39,108 nt of DNA from a virus, in the IMG/VR virus record IMGVR_UViG_3300024520_000202, positions 1-39,108 of that record, one strand, 5' to 3'. Position numbers and translations under genes: made by a program. Of the stretch, positions 3,901 through 38,101 are shown in pieces. Within the stretch, counting starts at the first letter, position 1; each line of letters opens with the position of its first letter. The notes below the pieces were generated by a model. That model was not told the DNA's origin. It did not search any database and saw nothing but the letters and a program-made list of their open reading frames with translations.

Positions 3901-5907
3901 CTATTCATAGCTTATGTTTACGGCTCCGGCATTAAACGTATCAGTGCCTGACCTTGTTATACGTAATCTATCTAATTCACCACTTAGTGTCTTTATACCA
4001 GATGCAATACAAACACTAGTTAATGTTTTACCCATTGACGACATAAGCCACTTATTCCCCCCCATATGATCTAAAACAGCCACTGCGTCCCCCGGAAGAG
4101 TTTGGCGTAGCACTAAAAACCCAGAGGTGGATGTGGCTGTGCCCCCCGACTGTGGAGTGTCAACTTGGCTTGTATAGCCACTTGTCTCTAGGCCACCGCT
4201 ATCCCCCAACTGAACCATTATTTCATCCGAGCCAGTTAAATCTACACCATCAAACATGACAGTAATACGTTTTGTCCCTGAAGGTATAGAGGTAAAATCA
4301 AAAGCAGTTCCAGATGTTGTGGCTTGCTCTGTTTCTAGTGTAATACCTGTTACCAAATCATCTACTTCACTTTTATTATAAACATCCATAACGGCTCTGG
4401 CCTGAGCTGCAGTTAAATCTTCGGGGTCACCAGTACCAGCTGTTACTCGTCCTTTTATAGTGGAGGTTGCCATATCACTAAGTTTGGCATTTGTTACGCT
4501 ATTGTCTGCTATAGCTGCACTCTGTACAGTATCAATCCAAACACCAGTTGTACTATCACCTATAAGTACATGAGTCTCCCATTGAGAGGATAAAATAATA
4601 GAAGAAGAGCCTTCTATAGTATCAGAGCCACCAGCGTTGATAGTTAAGGTATTAGCATCGCCAGTTTCTTTTACAAAAGCGAACTTCATGTCTTCACCAT
4701 AGACAGAGAGCTCTGATAAATTTACAACTACATTACCCCCGGAAGTATCAACCTTAAATAAGTAACCTTCTTCAGATAGTAGGGGTATAAATGGGCTATC
4801 AGCAAAGGTCTTAGTTACCACCTCATTATATAAACCTTCAGCAGCACTAGAGGCAGCGGCGGCAGCACTTGCAGAAGCAGCACTTTCACTAGTGGCGGCA
4901 TTTGTTTCACTAGTGGCGGCATTTGTTTCACTAGTGGCGGCATTTGTTTCACTAGTGGCGGCATTTGTCTCTGACACAGCAGCGGCGGCAGCGGCGGCAC
5001 CAACAGCACCAAATAACAGAGAAGGTGCAAAGACCAATACATTCTTAGTACCTGATTGAGGAGCTATGTCTAAGGTAAGTGTAGTATTCTCAAGTGTATA
5101 CTCATCTGGTCTAAATACCTTACGTTGGGTAGAGTTCTCTCGTGTCAGACTTACATTATCAATATTACCAGTAAATGTAGTGCTGCCAGTAAAGGTGATA
5201 AGCTGAGTAGCACCAGCTACAATAGTCTCTATATGGGTGCCATTAGCAGTACGTCCAGTACCAGCAGTACCAGCCATGTTAGGTGTTATTGTACCAGCAG
5301 AGTAGTCAGATACAGTAAAGGTTAACGTATAACTTTCTCCCTCATGCATGAGTATAGCAGCACTTTGCTCTAGGTCTCCATCCGTAGCAGTAGCTTTAGC
5401 CACACCATCAGCAATGGTCCAACCCACACCTTTAGTCCAGTCCTCATCAGTACTAAAGCCACCATTAGTAGTAAACTCATCTAGTAAATCTGCGAAAACC
5501 ATGAGTGTCTTTTCATCTGTACCTAAATCTACAGATAAAGTAAACTCAGTAGTAGTACCATCACCTGAGAAAGACTGGAAGAAAGCATCATTCTCTACAT
5601 CAGCTATCTGGATATTGGGTACTGTCCATAGAGCACCACTATCGGCGTCAGCAGCAGCCTGGTTGGGGTATAGTGCCAAGTCATAATTCTCTTGAACGTG
5701 AGGTATAATAACATTACCCCCATAGACAGGGTAGCCATCCTCATTAAGTATTATGCTACTTGACAGAGTAGCACCAGTGTAATCAGTGGCTAGTGCTATT
5801 ACAGTGGAGGTACTTTCTTCATATGCTTTTAATACAGCACCAGAATAAGGTACACCTTCTCCATCATCATATTGGGGGGGTAAAAATGCAAGTGGATACC
5901 AAGTCAT
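3901..5907 (-). CDS. Tail fibre / receptor-binding protein
   Basis: 668 aa. The N-terminal about 100 residues (GVPYSGAVLKAYEE..., then NEDGYPVYGGNV) resemble the particle-anchoring domain of podoviral fibres and spikes. Residues about 140-260 look like a beta-sandwich carbohydrate-binding module (ESYTLTFTVSDYSAG...NIDNVSLT). Next comes an Ala/Ser/Thr-rich shaft with four SETNAAT heptads (about 310-345), then a variable distal region including AIADNSVTNAKLSDMA, a motif common in fibres. It lies after the ejection genes and before the lysis genes, a usual place for the receptor-binding gene. Good ribosome site (AAGGAG) before ATG 5907. No hydrolase motif was seen, so adhesion rather than degradation is inferred. 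Confidence 0.8.
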   Translation of the reverse strand: MTWYPLAFLPPQYDDGEGVPYSGAVLKAYEESTSTVIALATDYTGATLSSSIILNEDGYPVYGGNVIIPHVQENYDLALYPNQAAADADSGALWTVPNIQIADVENDAFFQSFSGDGTTTEFTLSVDLGTDEKTLMVFADLLDEFTTNGGFSTDEDWTKGVGWTIADGVAKATATDGDLEQSAAILMHEGESYTLTFTVSDYSAGTITPNMAGTAGTGRTANGTHIETIVAGATQLITFTGSTTFTGNIDNVSLTRENSTQRKVFRPDEYTLENTTLTLDIAPQSGTKNVLVFAPSLLFGAVGAAAAAAAVSETNAATSETNAATSETNAATSETNAATSESAASASAAAAASSAAEGLYNEVVTKTFADSPFIPLLSEEGYLFKVDTSGGNVVVNLSELSVYGEDMKFAFVKETGDANTLTINAGGSDTIEGSSSIILSSQWETHVLIGDSTTGVWIDTVQSAAIADNSVTNAKLSDMATSTIKGRVTAGTGDPEDLTAAQARAVMDVYNKSEVDDLVTGITLETEQATTSGTAFDFTSIPSGTKRITVMFDGVDLTGSDEIMVQLGDSGGLETSGYTSQVDTPQSGGTATSTSGFLVLRQTLPGDAVAVLDHMGGNKWLMSSMGKTLTSVCIASGIKTLSGELDRLRITRSGTDTFNAGAVNISYE
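4884..4974 (-). repeat. 21-bp tandem repeat in the fibre shaft (SETNAAT heptads)
   Basis: Units start at 4891, 4912, 4933 and 4954. The first three are identical and the last diverges at its end; a partial unit precedes them at 4884. Each encodes SETNAAT on the minus strand. Heptad repeats build a trimeric coiled-coil shaft, and identical DNA units allow length change by slippage or recombination. Confidence 0.9.
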
Positions 5908-25029: not shown

Positions 25030-25245
25030 ATGGAACTAATAAGCTGCACAAAAATAAGTGAAAGACCTGATAGATATATGTTGAAGGTTTATATACATAA
25101 GATCTTTAGGGACTGTGAAACCCGGTTCTTTGTTGGTAACTGTACTGTCTTCCATGATAAAGAGACTTGGAAAAGGCCTGGTACAATGATGGAGAGCAAG
25201 CTATCAGTACTGTTAGAAGGATGGAAAAATGATAGAGAAAATTAA
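25030..25245 (+). CDS. Hypothetical early protein
   Basis: 71 aa, first rightward gene; AGGAG lies 7 bases before ATG 25030. Contains YMLKVYIHKIFRDCETRFFVG and a helical C-terminus. No family recognised. First-transcribed phage genes often act on the host, which is only a positional hint here. Overlaps the next gene by 17 bases. Confidence 0.55.
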   Translation: MELISCTKISERPDRYMLKVYIHKIFRDCETRFFVGNCTVFHDKETWKRPGTMMESKLSVLLEGWKNDREN

Positions 25246-25897
25246 AAAACTGTTAGCATTATCTGAGTCCTCCAACCCCCATGAAGCAGAGTTGGCATTG
25301 AGAAAAGCTAATGTCCTCATGCAGGAACACCAGATTACCCACATTGATCTTATACCTAAGCAAGAGGTAACTCATAGTGATATAGAAGAAGTAACACGCC
25401 AACACTATAGATGGGCAAGTACCCTAGCTAGTGCCTGTGCTCAGCTGTTTGATTGTATATCACTCAACACTACACACCCCAAAGGCTTTCGCTTTATTGG
25501 TAGTGAAGAGCATATAGTATGTGCCCACCAATTATTCTGGCACCTCTTCGAAGCATGGAAAGGCATGTGTAAGACTGATTACCAAGCAGATAGACCTTCT
25601 GATCGTAAAATGTATCGTAAGTCACATGGGCTGGGTTTTGCCAATACGATAGCTAAAAGAGTTCTCCTATTGAGAGATGAGAGGCATGATGCCATACTAA
25701 AAGCTACTGGTACTGATCTGGTAGTAGTTAAAGACCACAAAGTGAAGTCTTACATGTATGATACATTTAATATACAGACCCTCAAATCTAGGTCTCTTAT
25801 CACTAACAGCTCAGGTTATTCAAGGGGCCAAGTATCTGGCCAAAAAGTTAGTCTATCAACACCATTAGGAAAGAAGAAAGAAAATGATCGCATATAG
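25229..25897 (+). CDS. DUF2786-domain protein
   Basis: 222 aa. The first about 40 residues (KIKKLLALSESSNPHEAELALRKA...LMQEHQI) are the DUF2786 signature. The middle (ASTLASACAQLFDCIS, then HLFEAWKG) and C-terminal region with RSLITNSSGYSRG are like the companion domain seen in phage members. Function unknown; often in early regions of phages and in plasmids. GAAGGA before ATG 25229. Confidence 0.7.
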   Translation: MIEKIKKLLALSESSNPHEAELALRKANVLMQEHQITHIDLIPKQEVTHSDIEEVTRQHYRWASTLASACAQLFDCISLNTTHPKGFRFIGSEEHIVCAHQLFWHLFEAWKGMCKTDYQADRPSDRKMYRKSHGLGFANTIAKRVLLLRDERHDAILKATGTDLVVVKDHKVKSYMYDTFNIQTLKSRSLITNSSGYSRGQVSGQKVSLSTPLGKKKENDRI

Positions 25898-27419: not shown

Positions 27420-27487
27420 TGTTTTGGACAGTTTTCTTTGGCGTAGTATGCGCAGCACTATTTTTAAAATGGGTAGGGATAATATAA
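27419..27487 (+). CDS. 22-aa membrane micropeptide
   Basis: ATG 27419 starts inside the previous stop (TAATG) and its TAA (27485-27487) overlaps the next ATG (TAATG again). The peptide, MFWTVFFGVVCAALFLKW then four residues, is one hydrophobic helix. The double coupling suggests it is translated, or at least that reading it links its neighbours. No function can be assigned. Confidence 0.5.
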   Translation: MFWTVFFGVVCAALFLKWVGII

Positions 27488-29231: not shown

Positions 29232-29466
29232 CCACACAGTCATATAGAGCAAGACCCTTGGGAGTTATATAATAATCTGTATAGCTCCCACCTTTTTTGG
29301 CTTCAAGGTAACCATGCTTAGCCATTATACGTAAGGACCTATGGTGTGGCCATGTCTCTCTAAATTTCTTATTAATGCATCTAATACATTGAGCTTTACC
29401 TTCAACCATTCCTCTTGAGGAAGATATAAAATTAGATATCATTTTTCTATTAAGGTATTTACTCAT
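29209..29466 (-). CDS. Small winged-helix-like protein, third gene of leftward replication island
   Basis: 85 aa starting MSKYLNRK. ATG 29466 overlaps the primase-helicase stop (TAATG). The middle and end (HHRSLRIMAKHGYLEAKKGGSYTDYYITPKGLALY) are a typical winged helix with its beta wing, as in phage transcription or replication regulators. A longer frame to 29481 is less likely. Probably controls or assists replication initiation; inferred. Confidence 0.6.
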   Translation of the reverse strand: MSKYLNRKMISNFISSSRGMVEGKAQCIRCINKKFRETWPHHRSLRIMAKHGYLEAKKGGSYTDYYITPKGLALYDCVVIYLKPS

Positions 29467-31277
29467 TAATTTAGTACCCATCTGATTTTACCTTTACTCT
29501 TGATTTTTCTTATATCAAGTTTCTCCACTGCTTGTCTTAATTGTTTTCTACTTATACCAGTTGCCTCACCATCCCTATATAAAATCTCTTCTGTTTCTGA
29601 TCTCTTCTTAAGTCTTTCAACAAGGAATGCCTCAGCTTCTTCATTACTATCCTTAGTCATTTTGTCAGGGTTAGCTGTCATTACATCATCTACGGACAAA
29701 TCAGAGAAGCCCTCTATCCTGAAAGGTATTTTCCTATGTGCATCCAGGCTATATTCAATAGTGTCGCCCTTGGGAGCCAGATTGCTCTTAATATGACATA
29801 TACACCTGCTATTCATTTCCTCAGGGTGTGGCCCTATCATTAGAGCAGAACGTGCTGCTGCAGTAATATCAATAGAACCAACCCCCCGGTATATTGACTT
29901 ATCCTTGCCTCCCTTGGTTAAGTGACGTATGGCAAGTATTGCACAATTATGTCTCTCAGCCATTTGACTAAGTCCAGACATTATCTCTCGTGTTTCATTA
30001 GCTCTAAATAAATCTACCTTAGAGCCCATGTAAGCCACAATGGGGTCAATGATTACCAATGTGGGTTTTATCTTAGCTATCTGGTCATCCACTTCAGCAA
30101 AGCCATCCTCATCAAAAAACACAGGTTGGGCATAAGCATAGATATTTTTAACCTCTGCTCTCATGGAGTCTAGTCTAGGCCTAATGGTATCACCCAGCCC
30201 ATCTTCTGCAGACATTAATAGTACCTTGCCTTTTACCCTTCTCTTATTACCCAGTAATTTTTTACCCGTTGAGAGATAAGCAGCAAGTGCCATCGTTAGC
30301 CATGATTTACCCAGTCCTGGGTCACCCTCTAATAATGTCACTTTACATAGCGGTATATATGGATACCATAGCCACTCAACCTTTTCAGCTTCAACATTGG
30401 ACATACGTACAACTGTTGGGGACTCATCTTCTTCATCATCAAGAGAGAGTACATTGCTGGCTTCTACCTTTTCTATTTCACGCATTAGCTGAGAGTCTTC
30501 ATCATTACGACCAGTAAATTTATTCCACACAGACCCTTTAAGTAGGTTAAATCTCACATGAGCATTAATGCCCTGTTCGGCTAAATCATTATTAATCCTC
30601 CAGATAACGTCTGACCTTTTACCTTTGGTACATCTCTTTGCAGTCAGTAATCTTAATGTACTGGGTTTTATTTTACCCTTATACTTCTTCAGTATCTCTT
30701 TTGGGTCAAGATTCTGATAAACATGCTCAGGTAGTTCATCAATATTATATTCTACCTCCTCTTTAAACCATAGAGTCCTAACCCTTTGTGGTGGATCGTA
30801 TTTGTGGTTCATAGTGCCTGGTAATCTTAGTAATTGTGTTAAGTCCCATCCGCCTTTATCAGCACCAACACTATAAGACATTGCCTTATTACGTCGTTCT
30901 ATTATGTCAGCGGGATGAAACTTATCTAATATCCATAGACAAGCATAACGTTGATCTGAAGATTTCCATGCTATTTGAGGTTTAAATTCACAGCCCCTAG
31001 GGTTAACAGGGTCAAGGTCTGCCCACAGTAGTTTAGAGCCAATTACATAGGCTTTCTTTCTACGTGGGTTAATAAAAGGGGTGGGGCAGAAATAGACATT
31101 ATATTTATTATTATCATATTCATCCACAAAGTCTTCCAGTTCTTTCTTAGTTATTGGCCACTTAAAGAAGTGATCCTTTACTCTTTTACTAGACTTACTC
31201 AATGTGGTTATACAGAAATAATAGCCCTTCTTGGGCTCTTGGGTCTTCCATACTCTCATTATAAACTTGTAATTCAT
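29466..31277 (-). CDS. Fused primase (PrimPol-like) and RecA-fold replicative helicase
   Basis: 603 aa. N-terminal half: WADLDP (Asp87, Asp89), a WKSSDQRYACLWIL strand and DLTQLLRLPGTMNHKY (about 145-160), the pattern of archaeo-eukaryotic-type phage primases. C-terminal half: Walker A GDPGLGKS (318-325), SAEDG, Walker B LVIIDP (Asp411) and AILAIRHLTKGG, the RepA/AAA_25 hexameric helicase class, followed by a winged-helix end (ATGISRKQLRQAVEKL). It should prime and unwind the fork for the PolA-type polymerase. ATG overlaps the stop of the HTH peptide gene. It runs opposite to all other replication genes. Confidence 0.85.
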   Translation of the reverse strand: MNYKFIMRVWKTQEPKKGYYFCITTLSKSSKRVKDHFFKWPITKKELEDFVDEYDNNKYNVYFCPTPFINPRRKKAYVIGSKLLWADLDPVNPRGCEFKPQIAWKSSDQRYACLWILDKFHPADIIERRNKAMSYSVGADKGGWDLTQLLRLPGTMNHKYDPPQRVRTLWFKEEVEYNIDELPEHVYQNLDPKEILKKYKGKIKPSTLRLLTAKRCTKGKRSDVIWRINNDLAEQGINAHVRFNLLKGSVWNKFTGRNDEDSQLMREIEKVEASNVLSLDDEEDESPTVVRMSNVEAEKVEWLWYPYIPLCKVTLLEGDPGLGKSWLTMALAAYLSTGKKLLGNKRRVKGKVLLMSAEDGLGDTIRPRLDSMRAEVKNIYAYAQPVFFDEDGFAEVDDQIAKIKPTLVIIDPIVAYMGSKVDLFRANETREIMSGLSQMAERHNCAILAIRHLTKGGKDKSIYRGVGSIDITAAARSALMIGPHPEEMNSRCICHIKSNLAPKGDTIEYSLDAHRKIPFRIEGFSDLSVDDVMTANPDKMTKDSNEEAEAFLVERLKKRSETEEILYRDGEATGISRKQLRQAVEKLDIRKIKSKGKIRWVLN

Positions 31278-31504: not shown

Positions 31505-32068
31505 ATGATTATTCTAGAAGGCCCTGATAGCTCAGGAAAAACCACTCTAGCACATGCCCTATCAGAGACACTAGGTATACCGGTACATCATTTTGGAGGT
31601 CCACCAGAGAGTGCTGCTGAATTAAGAGAACGCATAGATTTTATGTTCGACAATAAGGACTTCTTAATCTATGATCGTATACCTCTAATTAGTGAACAAG
31701 TTTTCTCTATATTAAGGAGACAAAATTATATGAATGTGCTTACTAACTCTAATGCCGATCATGTAAGACTACAAGAACTTAAACCTATACTTATATACTG
31801 TAGGCCTTCTGATGAGCTGCTAATGGCGTGTAATCATCAAGTAAGTGAACATGATACAGAAGACCACATTAAAGCAGTAGAAGCCCATAAAAAGGCCCTA
31901 CTAGAGAGATATGACCATGTGATGGGTAGTGATCTAATGCCTAGATACTGGAAATATGATTATACTAAAATGAATGTTGGGGGCCTCATAACTCGTGTGG
32001 AGTCCACCATAAAAGAAAGAAACCATTACCCACAATTTCACTTAGGAAAGAGAGACAATGACCAATAA
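31505..32068 (+). CDS. Deoxynucleoside monophosphate kinase-like P-loop protein
   Basis: 187 aa. Walker A GPDSSGKTT (6-14) at the N-terminus, a DR motif (YDRIPLI, about 58-64) and a helical lid region are typical of thymidylate/dNMP kinases. The substrate is probably a dNMP, perhaps a modified one, judging from the TS-like and MazG-like genes next door. The AGGAG ribosome site is 31493-31497. Overlaps the following gene by 11 bases. Phage DNA-base kinases that act on 5-hydroxymethyl-uracil share this fold and remain an alternative. Confidence 0.65.
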   Translation: MIILEGPDSSGKTTLAHALSETLGIPVHHFGGPPESAAELRERIDFMFDNKDFLIYDRIPLISEQVFSILRRQNYMNVLTNSNADHVRLQELKPILIYCRPSDELLMACNHQVSEHDTEDHIKAVEAHKKALLERYDHVMGSDLMPRYWKYDYTKMNVGGLITRVESTIKERNHYPQFHLGKRDNDQ

Positions 32069-32459
32069 CTATAACACTAACCCCACTAAAGACGTATATG
32101 AATTCCAGACCACAGTACTGGGTAATGAGTTCCCAGATAAGCCCATGCTACTAGATAAGACTATGCGGTATGATACCTTTAATTGTCTAAACGAAGAGAT
32201 GAAAGAATTAGCTGATGCTCGGACTCTTCCAGATCAAGCAGATGCTTTAGTTGATCTTATCTATTTTGCATTTGGTGCACTCCATAGAATGGGTGTGGAT
32301 GCTGATCGTGTATGGGCAGAAGTACAACGTGCTAACATGACCAAAGTAAGAGGCAGAACTAAACGCAATCAAGAGAATGATGCAGCTAAACCACAAGACT
32401 GGAAAGGGCCCGATCACTCATGGCTAGAAGTAAAAGAGACTGGTCTGACTTCTGCTTAG
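32058..32459 (+). CDS. MazG-like all-alpha NTP pyrophosphohydrolase
   Basis: 133 aa. Metal-binding helices carry NEEMKELADA (about 44-53) and DQADALVDLIYFAFG (about 59-73), the ExxxE...ExxD-like pair of the MazG/PRA-PH type, with the usual GVDADRVWAEVQRANMTK and final KPQDWKGPD. It hydrolyses (d)NTPs to NMPs and, beside a TS homologue and a kinase, would be the dCTPase or dUTPase of the pathway. Overlaps both neighbours. Confidence 0.7.
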   Translation: MTNNYNTNPTKDVYEFQTTVLGNEFPDKPMLLDKTMRYDTFNCLNEEMKELADARTLPDQADALVDLIYFAFGALHRMGVDADRVWAEVQRANMTKVRGRTKRNQENDAAKPQDWKGPDHSWLEVKETGLTSA

Positions 32460-33148
32460 AACTAGCACTGTCAGACGCTAACAACACTCATGGCATTAGG
32501 AAGATAATACCAGACATATTATTTAAGACCACCCTTGACGACTCTATAAAGCTTACAGGGGTGGGCTTTAAACCTAATGGTAGTAAGCTAACTATGCTAA
32601 AAAAGTACTACATGAATTGGGATAGTATTCATAAAGCCTTTGAGTCCCTGGAGATAATAAAAGTTAAAGGTAAGCATGGATCAGTTGCTTTCAGTACTAT
32701 CGGCCAAGAGAAGAAATTCACTCACCACATGCACTGTATCCAGTCTATAACAATTACCCATTACCCAGGTGGAGAGCTAAGATATACAGTATTATATAGA
32801 CAGGCTGAACTGATTAAAATCTTCACTGGAGACATGGTCTTTATACGTGACGTAATCATGCCAATTTTTGGTAAAGGCAAGGTAACTTTCTTCTTCTCGA
32901 ACGCAGTATTAAACGCAATGTATTGCCCCATTATGTTTATCCACCACCAAGACGACTGGCTAAACTTATTGAGAGAACTCTATAAAACTGATAAGTCTTT
33001 TTATAAGCGATTTTATAAATGGTGTGAAATGTATTTCTCAGAAGAACCCATAAACTACTCTTCTGCTGAAGTGATTAGAGAACATATACATTCTCACCTT
33101 AACAAGAAGACTCGGAAGAAGATATTAGATGCGTTTAAGAAAAGGTAA
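32420..33148 (+). CDS. Second TS-fold candidate protein (divergent)
   Basis: 242 aa. HMHCIQSITITHY...GELRYTVLYRQAELIKIFTGDM fits the core of thymidylate synthase: a Cys (106), a hairpin, Arg127 (21 residues on; 20 in the classic family), an acidic residue at +3 and Asp138 at +11, the position of Asn177. The later strand VTFFFSNAVLN sits where TS has the His/Tyr ribose site, but the His is absent. The order of secondary structure fits, overall similarity is low, and it lacks the VPC loop. It overlaps the MazG-like gene by 40 bases. It may be a nucleotide-modifying enzyme or a non-catalytic partner; a different fold cannot be excluded. Confidence 0.5.
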   Translation: MARSKRDWSDFCLELALSDANNTHGIRKIIPDILFKTTLDDSIKLTGVGFKPNGSKLTMLKKYYMNWDSIHKAFESLEIIKVKGKHGSVAFSTIGQEKKFTHHMHCIQSITITHYPGGELRYTVLYRQAELIKIFTGDMVFIRDVIMPIFGKGKVTFFFSNAVLNAMYCPIMFIHHQDDWLNLLRELYKTDKSFYKRFYKWCEMYFSEEPINYSSAEVIREHIHSHLNKKTRKKILDAFKKR

Positions 33149-33377
33149 GATATATCGACATAAACATGAGCAAACTGGCTATTTCATGGTAATGGCTTTT
33201 ACTAAAAATGAAGTAACTATAAGCCCATTGTTTGGCTACTATCGTATTGTATTTGATACCTGTAGAAGAAGCTACTGGGATAACGCACATAAAGAATATA
33301 AAGGTAAAAATAGTCTGGCACCTTTTATACAAGCTAGATATGACCATGAGAAGATGAGGAGGCTAAATAAACTATGA
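33129..33377 (+). CDS. Hypothetical basic protein
   Basis: 82 aa, basic, beta-rich N-terminal part (GKIYRHKHEQTGYFMVMAFT) like a small SH3-type barrel, with a charged helical end. Overlaps the upstream gene by 20 bases and the next by 4. No family recognised. Confidence 0.5.
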   Translation: MRLRKGKIYRHKHEQTGYFMVMAFTKNEVTISPLFGYYRIVFDTCRRSYWDNAHKEYKGKNSLAPFIQARYDHEKMRRLNKL

Positions 33378-33547
33378 GTAGGAACGCAAAAATAAACCTA
33401 GCACTAGCCTTTGTACTAATTGCTTTTATAAGCCAGACAGTTGTGGCTTTTTACCCAAGTTTACCTTTATTATTTTTGATGGTTTTTAGTTACGGGACGA
33501 TAATTTATTTAGACCATAATATAGATGGAGGATGCTGTAATGGCTAA
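33374..33547 (+). CDS. Small two-helix membrane protein
   Basis: 57 aa. ATG 33374 overlaps the previous stop (ATGA). Two hydrophobic helices (INLALAFVLIAFISQTVVAF and LPLLFLMVFSYGTIIYL) and a CC-containing end. Its last 8 bases overlap the next start. No family recognised. Confidence 0.5.
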   Translation: MSRNAKINLALAFVLIAFISQTVVAFYPSLPLLFLMVFSYGTIIYLDHNIDGGCCNG

Positions 33548-33740
33548 ATGTAATAGGACAGTTTGCCAGAATGAGGGTATTCATACACACCGCCATAATG
33601 GAAAGAAATACTGTTCAGAGTGTGTTTACTTAATAGAAGAGAATATCTTTTTATTTAATGATCCCCCTTGTTTTGACATTTGCCGAAATTCAGCAAAAGC
33701 AATGCGTAGAGATGATGTACTATATAAAGGAGCAAAATAA
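33540..33740 (+). CDS. Small Cys/His-rich, probably zinc-binding protein
   Basis: 66 aa: NRTVCQNEGIHTHRHNGKKYCSECV provides Cys, two His and a CxxC, a small zinc-ribbon pattern; further Cys lie at PCFDIC. GGAGG lies 8 bases before ATG 33540, chosen over the earlier ATG 33525. Directly precedes dCMP deaminase. Function unknown. Confidence 0.55.
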   Translation: MAKCNRTVCQNEGIHTHRHNGKKYCSECVYLIEENIFLFNDPPCFDICRNSAKAMRRDDVLYKGAK

Positions 33741-33743
33741 ACC

Positions 33744-34214
33744 ATGAGAATATCAAGACACCAAATGTTTATGGAGATGGCCCATGTTGCAGCTAAACGT
33801 GCCACTTGCTTTAGAGAGAATGTTGGCTGTATCATTGTAAGAGATAATAAAGTGATTAGCATTGGCTACAATGGTTCACCCTCTGGCAAAGAGCACTGCC
33901 TATACCATCCAGGAGGCCAATGTACTGAAGCTATTCATGCTGAGATAAATGCACTAAGCTATCTTAATGATGAGTGGTTCTCTGGTAAGTATTGCGATTT
34001 ATATGTCACCCACTTACCTTGTAAAGATTGTACTGATACTATAATAAGCTCAGGTATTATTAGAAGAGTATTTTTCAGCACTATGTATGGTGACTCTGAG
34101 CCTATCTACCAGGAACTAGACAAAGATCATATTAAATTATTGAGAGTAATGCCTTCTGGTGCTATAACTTCACATGACAGATCGGAGCTATATAATAATG
34201 TTAGAGATTATTGA
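33744..34214 (+). CDS. dCMP deaminase
   Basis: 156 aa. HAE (65-67) and PCKDC (92-96) are the zinc-site motifs of the cytidine/deoxycytidylate deaminase fold, and GYNGSPSG (41-48) is the substrate loop typical of dCMP deaminases. It converts dCMP to dUMP for dTTP, or for a modified uracil pathway. AAGGAG upstream of ATG 33744. Overlaps the polymerase start by 17 bases. A further Cys/His set near CLYHPGGQC (52-60) matches the second, structural zinc site seen in T4-type enzymes. Confidence 0.88.
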   Translation: MRISRHQMFMEMAHVAAKRATCFRENVGCIIVRDNKVISIGYNGSPSGKEHCLYHPGGQCTEAIHAEINALSYLNDEWFSGKYCDLYVTHLPCKDCTDTIISSGIIRRVFFSTMYGDSEPIYQELDKDHIKLLRVMPSGAITSHDRSELYNNVRDY

Positions 34215-36045
34215 GTCAAATGCTGATTTTAAGAGAGCTCTAAAAGAGATAGAAAAAGAGAGAGAATTCTCATTCGATGTGGAAACCTCTGGTCTTAACC
34301 CTTTTGCTGAAGGTGCTTACTTGGCTTCTATTGGAATAGGCACTACCACACATGAATGGACTTTCCCTTTTAATCATCATGAGGCTAAACTCTATAGGAA
34401 GCTAAAGCGACAAAGAGCTAGGATGAATGCTCTGCATAATGTATTAGGTAAGAAAAAGAAAGTAGCCCATAATGGTAAGTTCGATGCCTTATTCATCCAT
34501 ACTCTTTTTGGCCATTGGTGGCACCCCACTTTTGATACGATGCTAGCTCACTATAATCTAGATGAGAATGAAAAACATGGGCTAAAGTCTCTATCCATGA
34601 GATACTTTGGAGATGATGGCTATGATATACCTTTAGAATGGAAACAGGGTTTAGAGGGTCCATTAGAAGACCACTGTATTTACCTTGGTAAAGATGTTAA
34701 CTATACTAAGAGGCTGAAGAGGGTCTTCCTAAGACAATTTAAAGAAGAACCCAATGCCTATAAAATTTTTAAACACCTTACTATGCCACTATCTGTTTTC
34801 TATACACGTGTAGAGAGCAGGGGTGTACCAATAGATAATGATTTACTTGAGGATGGCAGAGACTATTGGCAAGAACAAGCTCAAGATAGTAAGAAACAGC
34901 TTGATAAATTATCTAAAGGTTGGGAGCCCCCAGCAAACAAGAAGGGCAAGGTACCAGCAATTAATTTTGGTAGCCCCACTCAGATGGTAGACCTATTATT
35001 CGATCATCTTGACCTACAGCCATTAGATAAGACACCAAAAGGTAAATGGTCAACTAGTGAGTCTGTGCTGAATAGGCTTGACCACCCAATAGGTAAAGAG
35101 ATACTAAGGAATAGAGAAGCACTTAAAAACCTTAGTACCTTCATTGAAAGCTGGAAGTCACGTATGGATAGCAAGGGTCGGATACATCCTTCCTTTAAAA
35201 TACACGGCACAGTTACTGGTAGACCTTCATGTGTGGAGCCCAACTTACAACAGACAGCAAGAGATACACGTATTAGAGCTATTATTAGATCTATAGAAAA
35301 AGGCTGGGTACTTGTAGAAGCTGACTACTCACAAGCAGAACTAAGGCTAGTTGCTGATGTGGCCAATGAGCAGACACTCTTAGATATTTATAAACAGAAT
35401 GGGGATGTCCACACCTTAACAGTTCAAAGAGTGATTGGTATCATGCACCCTACTAAGGATGAGAGAAAGAAAGGTAAGGCCATTAACTTTGGTTTTATCT
35501 ATGGTATGTGGTGGAAGAAATTCAAAGAATATGCTAGAGATAATTATGGTGTTGCCTTTAATGATAAAGAGGCCCAACTAATAAGGAAGAAGTTTTTTAA
35601 TACCTACCAATTGGATGACTGGCACAAAAAGCAAAAGGCTCTAGCAAGGTCTCAGGGTTATGTAATGAATAAGATAGGTAGAAAACGTAGATTACCTAAT
35701 GCCATGAGACAAGCAAGAGGGGGGTATGACTACAAGAAGAGTGAGGCAGAAAGACAAGCAATAAACAGTCCCATTCAATCATTAGCCTCGGACATAAATT
35801 TGATGGCTGGGATAGAGGTTGATAATACTATCAGTCATGATAAGTGCCAAGCAATTGGGACAGTACACGACGCTAATTTATTTCTAATAAGAGAGAAACA
35901 CCTAGATAGTACATTACGAGAGATAAAGGCTATTATGGAGAACCCCACTGCATTAAAGAAAATTTTTAAATGTAAACTTAACGTACCATTGGTAGCTGAT
36001 TTTAAAGTTGGACCATGGAGCAAAGGAGTAGAATATGAATTTTAA
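34198..36045 (+). CDS. polA: Family A DNA polymerase with 3'-5' exonuclease domain
   Basis: 615 aa. Exonuclease motif FDVETSGLNP (Asp27, Glu29) lies near the start. Polymerase motif A is DYSQAELR (from residue 376), motif B KAINFGFIYG (from 427) with Phe at the E. coli Phe762 position, and motif C TVHDA (His557, Asp558; the usual Glu after Asp is Ala). There is no 5' nuclease domain, as in T7-type replicative enzymes. GGAG lies upstream of ATG 34198; a start at 34174 is possible but lies further into the deaminase gene. It is the replicative polymerase working with the primase-helicase. Confidence 0.9.
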   Translation: MLEIIESNADFKRALKEIEKEREFSFDVETSGLNPFAEGAYLASIGIGTTTHEWTFPFNHHEAKLYRKLKRQRARMNALHNVLGKKKKVAHNGKFDALFIHTLFGHWWHPTFDTMLAHYNLDENEKHGLKSLSMRYFGDDGYDIPLEWKQGLEGPLEDHCIYLGKDVNYTKRLKRVFLRQFKEEPNAYKIFKHLTMPLSVFYTRVESRGVPIDNDLLEDGRDYWQEQAQDSKKQLDKLSKGWEPPANKKGKVPAINFGSPTQMVDLLFDHLDLQPLDKTPKGKWSTSESVLNRLDHPIGKEILRNREALKNLSTFIESWKSRMDSKGRIHPSFKIHGTVTGRPSCVEPNLQQTARDTRIRAIIRSIEKGWVLVEADYSQAELRLVADVANEQTLLDIYKQNGDVHTLTVQRVIGIMHPTKDERKKGKAINFGFIYGMWWKKFKEYARDNYGVAFNDKEAQLIRKKFFNTYQLDDWHKKQKALARSQGYVMNKIGRKRRLPNAMRQARGGYDYKKSEAERQAINSPIQSLASDINLMAGIEVDNTISHDKCQAIGTVHDANLFLIREKHLDSTLREIKAIMENPTALKKIFKCKLNVPLVADFKVGPWSKGVEYEF

Positions 36046-36062: not shown

Positions 36063-36371
36063 ATGAGTAAAAATACAGAAGAGATGGACATTGAGGGTTT
36101 ATTAATTAACCTTATTGAAGAGGCCGCAGAGGTTGCTCAAATGGGTGCTAAATGCCTTCGTTTTGGTTTAGATGGCTACAACCCAAATGACCCAAAGAGG
36201 ACACCTAATCGTGTTTTGCTGGCACGTGAGATTGGTAATTTTACTTTTATAGGGGACAAGCTAATCACACAGGAAACATTGCCACTTATAGAAATGGTTA
36301 ATGGTATGCTTAGCAAAGAGGGGGGGCTTAAAAAATACCCTTTAATAATAAAAGGAAGAGAAAATGTTTAA
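36063..36371 (+). CDS. Second MazG-like helical protein
   Basis: 102 aa. LINLIEEAAEVAQMGAKCLRFGLDGYNP followed by VLLAREIGNFTFIGD is the pattern of short MazG-like nucleotide pyrophosphohydrolases; the second acidic motif is EIGN rather than EIGD. AAAGGAG before the ATG. Probably acts on dNTPs; which one is unknown. The changed Asp could mean altered or lost activity. Confidence 0.6.
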   Translation: MSKNTEEMDIEGLLINLIEEAAEVAQMGAKCLRFGLDGYNPNDPKRTPNRVLLAREIGNFTFIGDKLITQETLPLIEMVNGMLSKEGGLKKYPLIIKGRENV

Positions 36372-37329
36372 AGTATCACAGTCTAAAATAAATAGATGGC
36401 GTAGTTGTAGAAAGTCCTTCTATTATAAGTACATAATGAGGCTTATGAAAAAGAATAAGCCCATGCCTTTTATGCGAGGTGACATAGTACACCAGATGCT
36501 AGAGGCCCACTACTTAGGGAAAAAACCCTGGCCAGTATATGATAAATTAATAAAGAAGAATGAGAAGATACTCAGGATACATGCTGATGATTATGGTGAT
36601 TTACCTGGACATCTTAAGACACTAATGAAAGGTTATTTTAAGCATTATAAAAAAGAAAAAGTGAAAGCCATATCTGTTGAAGGTGAGTTCTCCACTGAGC
36701 TTACAAAAGGTATCAACCTAATTGGTAAGATGGATATGATAGCAGAGCACCAAAAACTAAAATGGATGGTAGAACACAAATGCCACAACATCATACCTAC
36801 TGGAGGAATGGTACCTTATAGTAATATGCAGAGTTCTTTATATATGTGGTCTTACGAGAAAGAAAATGATCTTAAACTAGATGGAGTGATGTGGAACTAC
36901 TTATTAGGTAAACCTCTGCCAAAACCCCAATTACTTAAAAGTGGTGAAATGAGTAGGAGAAGCAGCAGTACCACATGGGCAGTATATAGAGCAGCTTTGA
37001 AAGAGGCAGGACTAAAACCTAAAGACTATCTAGATATGAAGGCGCAGCTAACTGGTAATGAGGACCTAGTTTATCAGAGACTACTAATACCTCGTAATGA
37101 TACGCTTATACAATCCGTAGTAGAGGATACCATAACTACTGCTAAGGAGATAAAGAGACGAGGAGGCAAAGACCAGACTAGGAACCTTGGAAGGCATTGT
37201 GATTACTGCGAATTTAAGAATTTATGCTTTGCACAGTTGAAAGGTTTAGACGATAACTATATATTAAAAGCAGACTTCAAAGTAAGGGAAAAAAGAAATG
37301 AGCCACAAAAGAATAGCAAAAAAAATTAA
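36364..37329 (+). CDS. PD-(D/E)XK exonuclease, Cas4/RecB-like with four-Cys cluster
   Basis: 321 aa. NRWRSCRKSFYYKY at the start and HCDYCEFKNLC near residue 280 give the four cysteines of an Fe-S cluster fold seen in Cas4/AddB nucleases. GKMDMI and WMVEHK supply the Asp and E-x-K catalytic residues. Such phage nucleases resect DNA ends for single-strand annealing. AAGGAAGAG precedes ATG 36364. Overlaps the Sak4-like gene by 32 bases, matching the known exonuclease-Sak4-SSB cluster. Confidence 0.8.
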   Translation: MFKVSQSKINRWRSCRKSFYYKYIMRLMKKNKPMPFMRGDIVHQMLEAHYLGKKPWPVYDKLIKKNEKILRIHADDYGDLPGHLKTLMKGYFKHYKKEKVKAISVEGEFSTELTKGINLIGKMDMIAEHQKLKWMVEHKCHNIIPTGGMVPYSNMQSSLYMWSYEKENDLKLDGVMWNYLLGKPLPKPQLLKSGEMSRRSSSTTWAVYRAALKEAGLKPKDYLDMKAQLTGNEDLVYQRLLIPRNDTLIQSVVEDTITTAKEIKRRGGKDQTRNLGRHCDYCEFKNLCFAQLKGLDDNYILKADFKVREKRNEPQKNSKKN

Positions 37330-38101
37330 GTCTATCCCTCAAGAGGCAGAACCCATAACCTCAGTCCTTTATGGTAAAGCTGGTACTGGTAAGACTACGA
37401 TTTTAGGTACCTATCCACATGTACTTCATCTAGATATAAGAGAAGAAGGTAAAAAGGTACTTAAGAAAATAAAAGGTATCAAATCAGCTAATATAGATAA
37501 TTGGGACGATTTAGTATCTATGTACTGGTATCTTAAAAAAGAGAGCCATAAATTTGAGACTGTTGGTATTGACACTGCAGGCCAAGCCCAATTACTAGCA
37601 GTAGAGAAAGTGATGAAAAAGAACAATAAAAAAGGCAGGCCAGGTGATTGGGGTTCTATGTCTCAAAAGATGTGGGGTGAAGTAGCCTCCATGTGTAAAG
37701 AGCTATTCCTTAACTTCAGAGACTTAAAGAAAGAAGGTATTAATGTGGTCTTTATTGCTCACGATAGGGTATTTAAAGCAAATGAGGAAGAAGATGATGA
37801 AGGTAATGTCTCTCGTATAGCACCACATATGGGTCCAGCACTATCCCCTTCCATAGTCAGTACATTAAATGCCTCAGTAGATATTGTAGGTGAAGCCTTT
37901 ATTGGTGAAGAGTTTAAGATTGTAAAACATAAGAAGACACGGAAAAGAAAAGAAATAAGAAAGATAGAGTACTATTTACGGATAGGCCCCAATAGTTCAT
38001 ATATTACTAAGGTCAGGCGACCCAAGAGTAAGACTAAGTTACCTGATATGATTAAAAACCCATCTTACAAAAAACTAGTTAAAATAATGGAAGGCGACTA
38101 A
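37298..38101 (+). CDS. Sak4-like RecA-fold ATPase (single-strand annealing/recombinase)
   Basis: 267 aa. Walker A GKAGTGKTT (26-34), a TVGIDTAGQ Walker B (about 88-96) and INVVFIAHDRV (about 148-158) are the ordered motifs of the AAA_24/Sak4 family, minimal RecA relatives used by phages for recombination with their own SSB. Gene order nuclease, Sak4, small acidic protein, SSB supports this. The C-terminal part carries KKTRKRKEIRKI, probably DNA-contacting. AAGGG upstream. Confidence 0.8.
   Translation: MSHKRIAKKIKSIPQEAEPITSVLYGKAGTGKTTILGTYPHVLHLDIREEGKKVLKKIKGIKSANIDNWDDLVSMYWYLKKESHKFETVGIDTAGQAQLLAVEKVMKKNNKKGRPGDWGSMSQKMWGEVASMCKELFLNFRDLKKEGINVVFIAHDRVFKANEEEDDEGNVSRIAPHMGPALSPSIVSTLNASVDIVGEAFIGEEFKIVKHKKTRKRKEIRKIEYYLRIGPNSSYITKVRRPKSKTKLPDMIKNPSYKKLVKIMEGD

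Follow-up and report, generated by a model that had tools for sequence, protein, structure and literature searches.

Within the thymidylate synthase (TS) superfamily, the choice of pyrimidine has been linked to the residue equivalent to Asn177 of Escherichia coli TS: the N177D change switches the preference of the enzyme from deoxyuridine monophosphate (dUMP) to deoxycytidine monophosphate (dCMP), and Asp177 is found mostly in TS proteins from contigs selected for modified cytosine, in which TS co-occurs with PF01503 and PF00383, the same Pfam families as in the cassette described below (PMC8670742). In the dCMP hydroxymethylase of phage T4 (gp42), specificity for cytosine is determined by Asp179, and the glutamate tail of the folate is contacted by Arg177; this enzyme is devoid of the C-terminal tail that characterizes TS (PMC6400193). 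Other members of the superfamily include AfhB of phage HY126, described in the titles of its PDB entries (9iqu and 9iqc) as a flavin-dependent dCMP hydroxylase, and a 5-hydroxy-dCMP synthase of Mosigvirus that feeds arabinosylated cytosine (PMC13390438). Here we describe a gene block in a single IMG/VR viral contig, IMGVR_UViG_3300024520_000202, whose 39,108 bp constitute the window of this analysis. From its observed gene content, conservation, predicted folds, and active-site residues we infer, with a probability of about 0.62, that the block encodes a cytosine-replacement pathway proceeding via 5-hydroxymethyl-deoxycytidine triphosphate (5-hydroxymethyl-dCTP), the substrates, the product, the order of steps, the base in the virion DNA, and its protection from nucleases all being predicted.

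An earlier note, made from the sequence of this DNA alone, had proposed a T4-like deoxynucleoside triphosphate (dNTP)-remodelling cassette made up of a kinase, a MazG-like pyrophosphatase, a TS-fold candidate (henceforth ORF4, for open reading frame 4), and a dCMP deaminase placed just before a DNA polymerase (PolA), with a second TS homologue at 27487. All of these genes were recovered at the expected places in the ORF list, all but ORF4 with a Pfam or PHROG match, and the genes for the kinase, MazG-like protein, and ORF4 indeed overlap end to end (Table 1), as does the deaminase ORF with the polymerase ORF.

The substrate prediction is carried by the product of the gene at 27487, hereinafter the TS-like protein. 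It matches phrog_160, labelled 'thymidylate synthase' (E 5e-27), and scores 19.9 bits against PF00303, below the cut-off of 24.3. Its AlphaFold2 model (predicted local distance difference test, pLDDT, 93.2) displays the TS fold and recovers T4 gp42 with Foldseek (1b49, E 3e-11) and with VIA (Z 18.3, 2.7 Å over 215 residues). The equivalents of the catalytic Cys146 (Cys182 in the window) and of Arg126, Arg166, and His207 are invariant in the 85 non-redundant homologues, all of which also have Asp or Glu at the position aligned with TS Glu58. Position 177, which is Asn in ThyA and SPO1 gp29 and Asp in T4 gp42, is Asp in 85 of 85 (Asp213 in the window). Further, the window protein shows FRDD at the site where T4 gp42 has FRND, and only 10 residues follow its H-x-F motif, as against 55 in ThyA; hence, like T4 gp42, it has no tail of the kind that characterizes TS. 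Asp177, the published effect of N177D, the FRDD motif, and the short C-terminus together favor dCMP as the substrate, which we regard as very probable. Given Asp177, the sub-threshold PF00303 score, and the missing tail, the TS-like protein is, by these sequence features, not a thymidylate synthase. A gene for ThyX lies in the same block in seven loci, and therefore the TS-like protein need not make thymidylate (dTMP) there; this, together with the aforesaid features, led us to reject a plain TS. Of the two precedents that the earlier note had entertained, the active-site Asp points to the cytosine branch typified by T4 rather than to the hydroxymethyluracil branch of SPO1, which was likewise rejected on Asp177.

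The cassette extends well beyond the window. Homologues of the TS-like protein were found in at least 325 IMG/VR stretches and in 106 phage records, every one of the latter at less than 60% identity. Conservation was assessed by running profiles of each cassette member over all fetched loci, some of which duplicate one contig. The order primase-helicase (on the opposite strand), kinase, MazG, ORF4, TS-like, deaminase, PolA, Cas4-like, and Sak4 is exact in 50 loci, and many more retain it with their ends cut or with single losses. Among the 133 loci with a TS-like gene, the deaminase is present in 119, PolA in 114, ORF4 in 106, the kinase in 98, MazG in 95, and ThyX in 7. Conversely, 41 of the 42 loci found via ORF4 contain a TS-like gene, the sole exception (L111) having the kinase, MazG, and ORF4. 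The recurrence of the same gene order across dozens of contigs, as well as among cultured phages, indicates that the cassette is more than a chance assemblage. Its cultured carriers include Brevundimonas phage Strzyga, Serratia phage Serbin, Pseudomonas phages PMBT14 and Lebethron, and the actinophages Fribs8 and Margaret of Gordonia, Zuko of Streptomyces, and Muddy of Mycobacterium. Muddy (L139) has the whole cassette (gp49-gp42), including an ORF4-like gp47 and a TS-like gp46 that has Asp177 and bears the annotation thymidylate synthase. The cassette is frequent among small siphoviruses, and among phages with contractile tails, that infect proteobacteria or actinobacteria; the expectation of the earlier note that it would be unusual for this type of phage was thus not borne out, as it is also present in a second P22-like contig (L008). 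The window departs from the usual order only in that its TS-like gene lies 4 kb upstream of the rest of the cassette, an arrangement seen in two loci; in L008, its nearest relative, which shares its P22-type portal (61% identity), the TS-like gene likewise precedes that for the primase-helicase. In L008 the kinase and MazG are also read as a single fused ORF of 292 aa (4490-5368). No restriction or base-composition data were found in the literature for P744 or MD02, and none turned up for Muddy; the presumed host of MD02, a related Desulfofustis phage, has spacers matching this phage (PMC10370329).

If the substrate is dCMP, the nature of the product has to be decided between folate-dependent hydroxymethylation and flavin-dependent hydroxylation. 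On the folate side of the active site, the TS-like family resembles T4 gp42, with Asp at R+3 in 97 of 98 sequences, Phe at R+8 in 75, and Arg at R+9 in 70, whereas the corresponding residues of AfhB are Asn, Met, and Gln. Of the sites of the T4 folate contacts, that of Asp171 mostly holds Asp in the family (97/98) but Glu in the window protein, that of Arg177 holds Arg in 70/98 and in the window protein, and that of Glu60, as placed by a sequence alignment, holds Asp or Glu in 85 of 85. Additionally, according to the title of PDB entry 1bjg, opening of the folate ring is not promoted when the corresponding D is changed to N in TS. These residues, which are those of T4 gp42 and not of AfhB, together with the 1bjg title, lead us to consider folate-dependent hydroxymethylation the probable reaction.

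The chief competing proposal is that either the TS-like protein or ORF4 hydroxylates dCMP at C5 with the aid of a flavin, in the manner of AfhB, producing a genome with 5-hydroxycytosine or a derivative thereof. AfhB is the best structural match of both proteins, it supplies the top PDB profile matches of the TS-like protein (9iqu and 9iqc, E 2e-8), and both it and the TS-like protein contain D-x-YL and end soon after H-x-F; moreover, the Mosigvirus enzyme is a precedent for a 5-hydroxy-dCMP synthase in this superfamily. Nevertheless, the structural scores of the TS-like model amount to a tie of AfhB with MilA and TS, the AfhB residues at R+3, R+8, and R+9 are at odds with those prevailing in the family, and the known 5-hydroxycytosine phages glycosylate the base, whereas no glycosyltransferase was recognized among the window proteins scanned. 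Hence, we deem this proposal unlikely, albeit deserving of consideration.

Several observations weigh against hydroxymethylation by a T4-like pathway. The window protein, while retaining Arg at the Arg177 site, has Glu rather than Asp at R+3 (the Asp171 site), which is unique to it (1/85). Its model lies structurally as near to AfhB (VIA Z 19.4) as it does to MilA (18.9) or T4 gp42, and in BLASTP its match to AfhB (E 7e-7) is closer than that to T4 gp42 (E 0.01). To these may be added the aforementioned 4 kb between the TS-like gene and its partners, the substrate specificities of the kinase and pyrophosphatase, which are only predicted, and the lack of a recognizable glycosyl- or carbamoyltransferase among the proteins scanned.

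The remaining explanations are less compatible with the data. One could hold that the cassette only raises the supply of thymidine triphosphate (dTTP) through a deaminase, dUTPase, TS, and TMP kinase, leaving the DNA unmodified; this accords with the labels given by annotators to the cassette genes (thymidylate kinase, dUTPase, thymidylate synthase, and deaminase) and with a report on Fribs8, in which no putative enzymes of DNA modification were found (PMC13355239). It is, however, improbable in light of the Asp177 of all 85 homologues, the missing TS tail, and the presence of ThyX within the block in the seven loci noted above; no canonical TS was found in the window. Alternatively, the TS-like protein might be a dCMP C5-methylase, given that the N177D thymidylate synthase yields 5-methyl-dCMP and that the genome of Xanthomonas phage XP12, used as control DNA, contains 5-methyldeoxycytidine (PMC8670742), but with only 10 residues after H-x-F in place of the TS tail we find a genome with 5-methylcytosine highly doubtful. 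Modification on the uracil side, with 5-hydroxymethyluracil or its derivatives as in SPO1 or ViI, would also call for a kinase, deaminase, and pyrophosphatase and accords with the Gln after the phosphate Arg shared with SPO1 gp29, but is extremely improbable given the Asp, rather than the Asn of gp29, at the discriminating position. A Z-genome (PurZ/MazZ) was also considered in view of the MazG and PolA genes, and set aside as inspection of the ORF list by eye revealed no PurZ-like ORF.

The second TS-fold protein of the cassette is ORF4. The window version has no sequence match in Pfam, PHROG, or PDB; most other members match only phrog_34294, of unknown function, and one of 69 matches phrog_160 (E 7e-4). 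Compared profile to profile, ORF4 and the TS-like family gave no significant match, one run yielding a weak alignment in the expected register and the other nothing. Kinship with the TS-like family was thus not provable by sequence, and it was the fold that settled the assignment, in agreement with the candidacy proposed in the earlier note. An AlphaFold2 model built from 60 homologues, with alignments drawn from the IMG/VR loci, was obtained with pLDDT 94.5 and a predicted template-modelling score of 0.90, and displays the TS fold. Its best VIA match is 9iqu (Z 13.7, 3.2 Å over 170 residues) and the 50 best matches all belong to the TS superfamily; among viral models the best match (TM score 0.85) is an uncharacterized PMBT14 protein, which is the cassette neighbor in that phage. 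This gives the family two proteins of TS fold. Five residues of ORF4 are invariant (Y64, C106, R127, E130, and D138), the last four of which fall on TS Cys146, Arg166, Asp169, and Asn177, with the Arg-to-Asp spacing of 11 as in TS. The actinophage versions (Muddy gp47, Fribs8 gp43, Zuko gp75, and Margaret gp53) show weak but significant matches, with the Cys, Arg, and Asp retained. To judge from the order of elements and the length of ORF4, much of the segment that in TS connects the Glu58 helix with the Arg126 loop seems to be missing from it; therefore, ordinary folate binding looks doubtful. On the strength of the model, we posit that ORF4 is a newly recognized TS-fold family that has retained the catalytic core.

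No role for ORF4 was found in the literature searched. Its function may be that of a partner subunit, of a regulator of the nucleotide pool, or of a second enzyme. Distance matrices of the cassette proteins correlate at 0.74-0.94 among themselves, with ORF4 tracking PolA (r 0.91), but those of the TS-like protein at only 0.47-0.58 with all of them, on which basis the TS-like gene may have been exchanged between phages. An obligate complex of ORF4 and the TS-like protein thus found no support in co-evolution: the partial correlation of the two given PolA is -0.08, although the TS distances are perhaps saturated. More tentatively, the two may form a system in which ORF4 is an active enzyme or obligate partner whose invariant Cys and Asp act on dCMP or 5-hydroxymethyl-dCMP, giving an undescribed cytosine derivative or a two-component hydroxymethylase, including in Muddy DNA.

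In the hydroxymethylation pathway that we favor, the TS-like enzyme would bind dCMP via Asp213 and, with Cys182 and methylene-tetrahydrofolate, convert it to 5-hydroxymethyl-dCMP. The P-loop kinase would raise this to the diphosphate, with a host kinase completing the triphosphate, while the MazG-like pyrophosphatase or pyrophosphatases would destroy dCTP and deoxyuridine triphosphate (dUTP), thereby keeping ordinary cytosine out and recycling dCMP as substrate. The deaminase is predicted to turn some of the dCMP into dUMP, from which thymidylate is made, and the phage PolA to copy the genome using the modified dCTP. ORF4 would act in this pathway too, as a second nucleotide-binding protein with the TS fold, in one of the above capacities, the second-enzyme option being one acting on dCMP.

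Table 1. Genes of the predicted cytosine-replacement cassette and its surroundings, with window coordinates
Feature	Position	Strand	Evidence
TS-like pyrimidine nucleotide C5-modifying enzyme, predicted dCMP hydroxymethylase, 263 aa	27487..28278 (ATG 27487)	+	phrog_160
Primase-helicase type AAA protein bordering the cassette	29466..31277	-	PF13481 105 bits; phrog_3123 E 3e-83; phrog_10514 DNA primase
P-loop nucleotide kinase, predicted (modified) dCMP kinase	31505..32068	+	phrog_761 'thymidylate kinase' E 4e-14; GPDSSGKTT P-loop
MazG-like all-alpha nucleoside triphosphate (NTP) pyrophosphatase, predicted dCTPase/dUTPase	32058..32459	+	PF01503 52.5 bits (cut-off 21.3)
ORF4, second, divergent TS-fold protein	32420..33148	+	AlphaFold2 fold; invariant residues
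Small ORF of the cassette	33129..33377	+	overlaps ORF4; homologues in 4 loci
dCMP deaminase	33744..34214	+	PF00383 80.8 bits; solved dCMP deaminases E 2e-21
Family A DNA polymerase (PolA) with 3'-5' exonuclease domain	34174..36045	+	PF00476 264 bits, PF01612 77 bits
Second, very short NTP pyrophosphohydrolase-like ORF, just after the polymerase	36063..36371	+	phrog_4856 E 6e-11
Cas4-like PD-(D/E)XK exonuclease, conserved downstream	36364..37329	+	PF12705 64 bits; phrog_1218
Sak4-like annealing ATPase, conserved downstream	37298..38101	+	phrog_124 E 5e-38

Among the other cassette genes, the kinase, whose start is preceded by a clear AGGAG ribosome-binding site, reaches no Pfam family above its cut-off, and matches the T4-type dNMP kinase family phrog_139 at E 0.089 as against 4e-14 for phrog_761. 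The closest solved structure to the MazG-like protein is DR2231 (E 9e-12). In the window this slot is occupied by PF01503 and not by PF08761, the Pfam family of T4 gp56, whereas in Serbin it is occupied by PF08761; such non-orthologous filling fits a role in removing dCTP and dUTP, which we would ascribe to the slot. The earlier parallel with T4 accordingly stands as to the logic of dNTP remodelling, but by the searches used the MazG-like protein would be a functional counterpart of gp56 rather than an orthologue, and the kinase probably stands in the same relation to gp1. The deaminase matches T4 and other dCMP deaminases and displays the zinc-deaminase motifs HAEINAL (HAE) and PCKDC (PCxxC). 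Homologues of the short phrog_4856 ORF were seen in only three loci.

The ends of the contig (1-555 and 38579-39108) match each other at 88.8% identity across some 555 bp, and both encode variants of one acidic protein, sited between Sak4 and an SNF2 helicase; this overlap makes a complete or near-complete genome probable. Probably, an entire circularly permuted genome was assembled through two variants, the alternative being that the acidic-protein gene is a tandem duplicate. The description of the phage as P22-like holds at the level of its structural module, which comprises a P22-type portal (phrog_156), an Hc3/gp10-type stabilisation protein (phrog_578, Hc3) with homologues in Vibrio and Shewanella phages, and a large terminase (phrog_38). 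Pfam and PHROG scans of the larger early proteins recognized no glycosyl-, carbamoyl-, or aminotransferase. A DUF2786/DUF7168 protein (phrog_421) is encoded among the early genes at 25229-25897.

If our proposal is true, cytosine replacement would be much commoner in small phages than current annotation suggests, since the TS homologue, carried by about 100 records, is usually labelled thymidylate synthase or hypothetical. This would bear on restriction, CRISPR, and modification-dependent (type IV) defense, as well as on library preparation and phage engineering; Muddy has been used clinically against Mycobacterium abscessus. As ORF4 and the cassette occur in cultured phages, the proposal is directly testable in them.

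Compared with known systems, the cassette is best seen as a variant of the T4/MetaGPA kind, more widely spread than first thought and with an added TS-fold protein, ORF4. With the T4 pathway (gp42, gp56, gp1, and cd) it shares the TS fold with its catalytic Cys, Asp177, and FR[DN]D motif, the lack of the TS tail, and the complement of kinase, dCTPase-type pyrophosphatase, and dCMP deaminase. Unlike in T4, the TS-like protein is only about 19-21% identical to gp42, the window pyrophosphatase is of the PF01503 rather than the gp56 family found in Serbin, ORF4 and a family A polymerase are present, and no glucosyltransferase was recognized in the proteins scanned. The MetaGPA modified-cytosine contigs, compared by their published description (PMC8670742), similarly have an Asp177 TS with PF01503 and PF00383 nearby, but no carbamoyltransferase was recognized in the window. 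AfhB, whose structure has dCMP bound, resembles the TS-like protein in fold, Asp177, H-x-F motif, and short C-terminus, and differs in having Asn/Met/Gln in place of Asp/Phe/Arg and a different gene neighborhood. The CMP 5-hydroxymethylase MilA of mildiomycin synthesis likewise combines the TS fold with Asp at 177 (Z 18.9), but acts on a ribonucleotide in antibiotic biosynthesis. Finally, the dUMP hydroxymethylase gp29 of SPO1 shares the superfamily and the Arg-Gln of the phosphate loop, but is set apart by its Asn at 177 and its long C-terminal extension.

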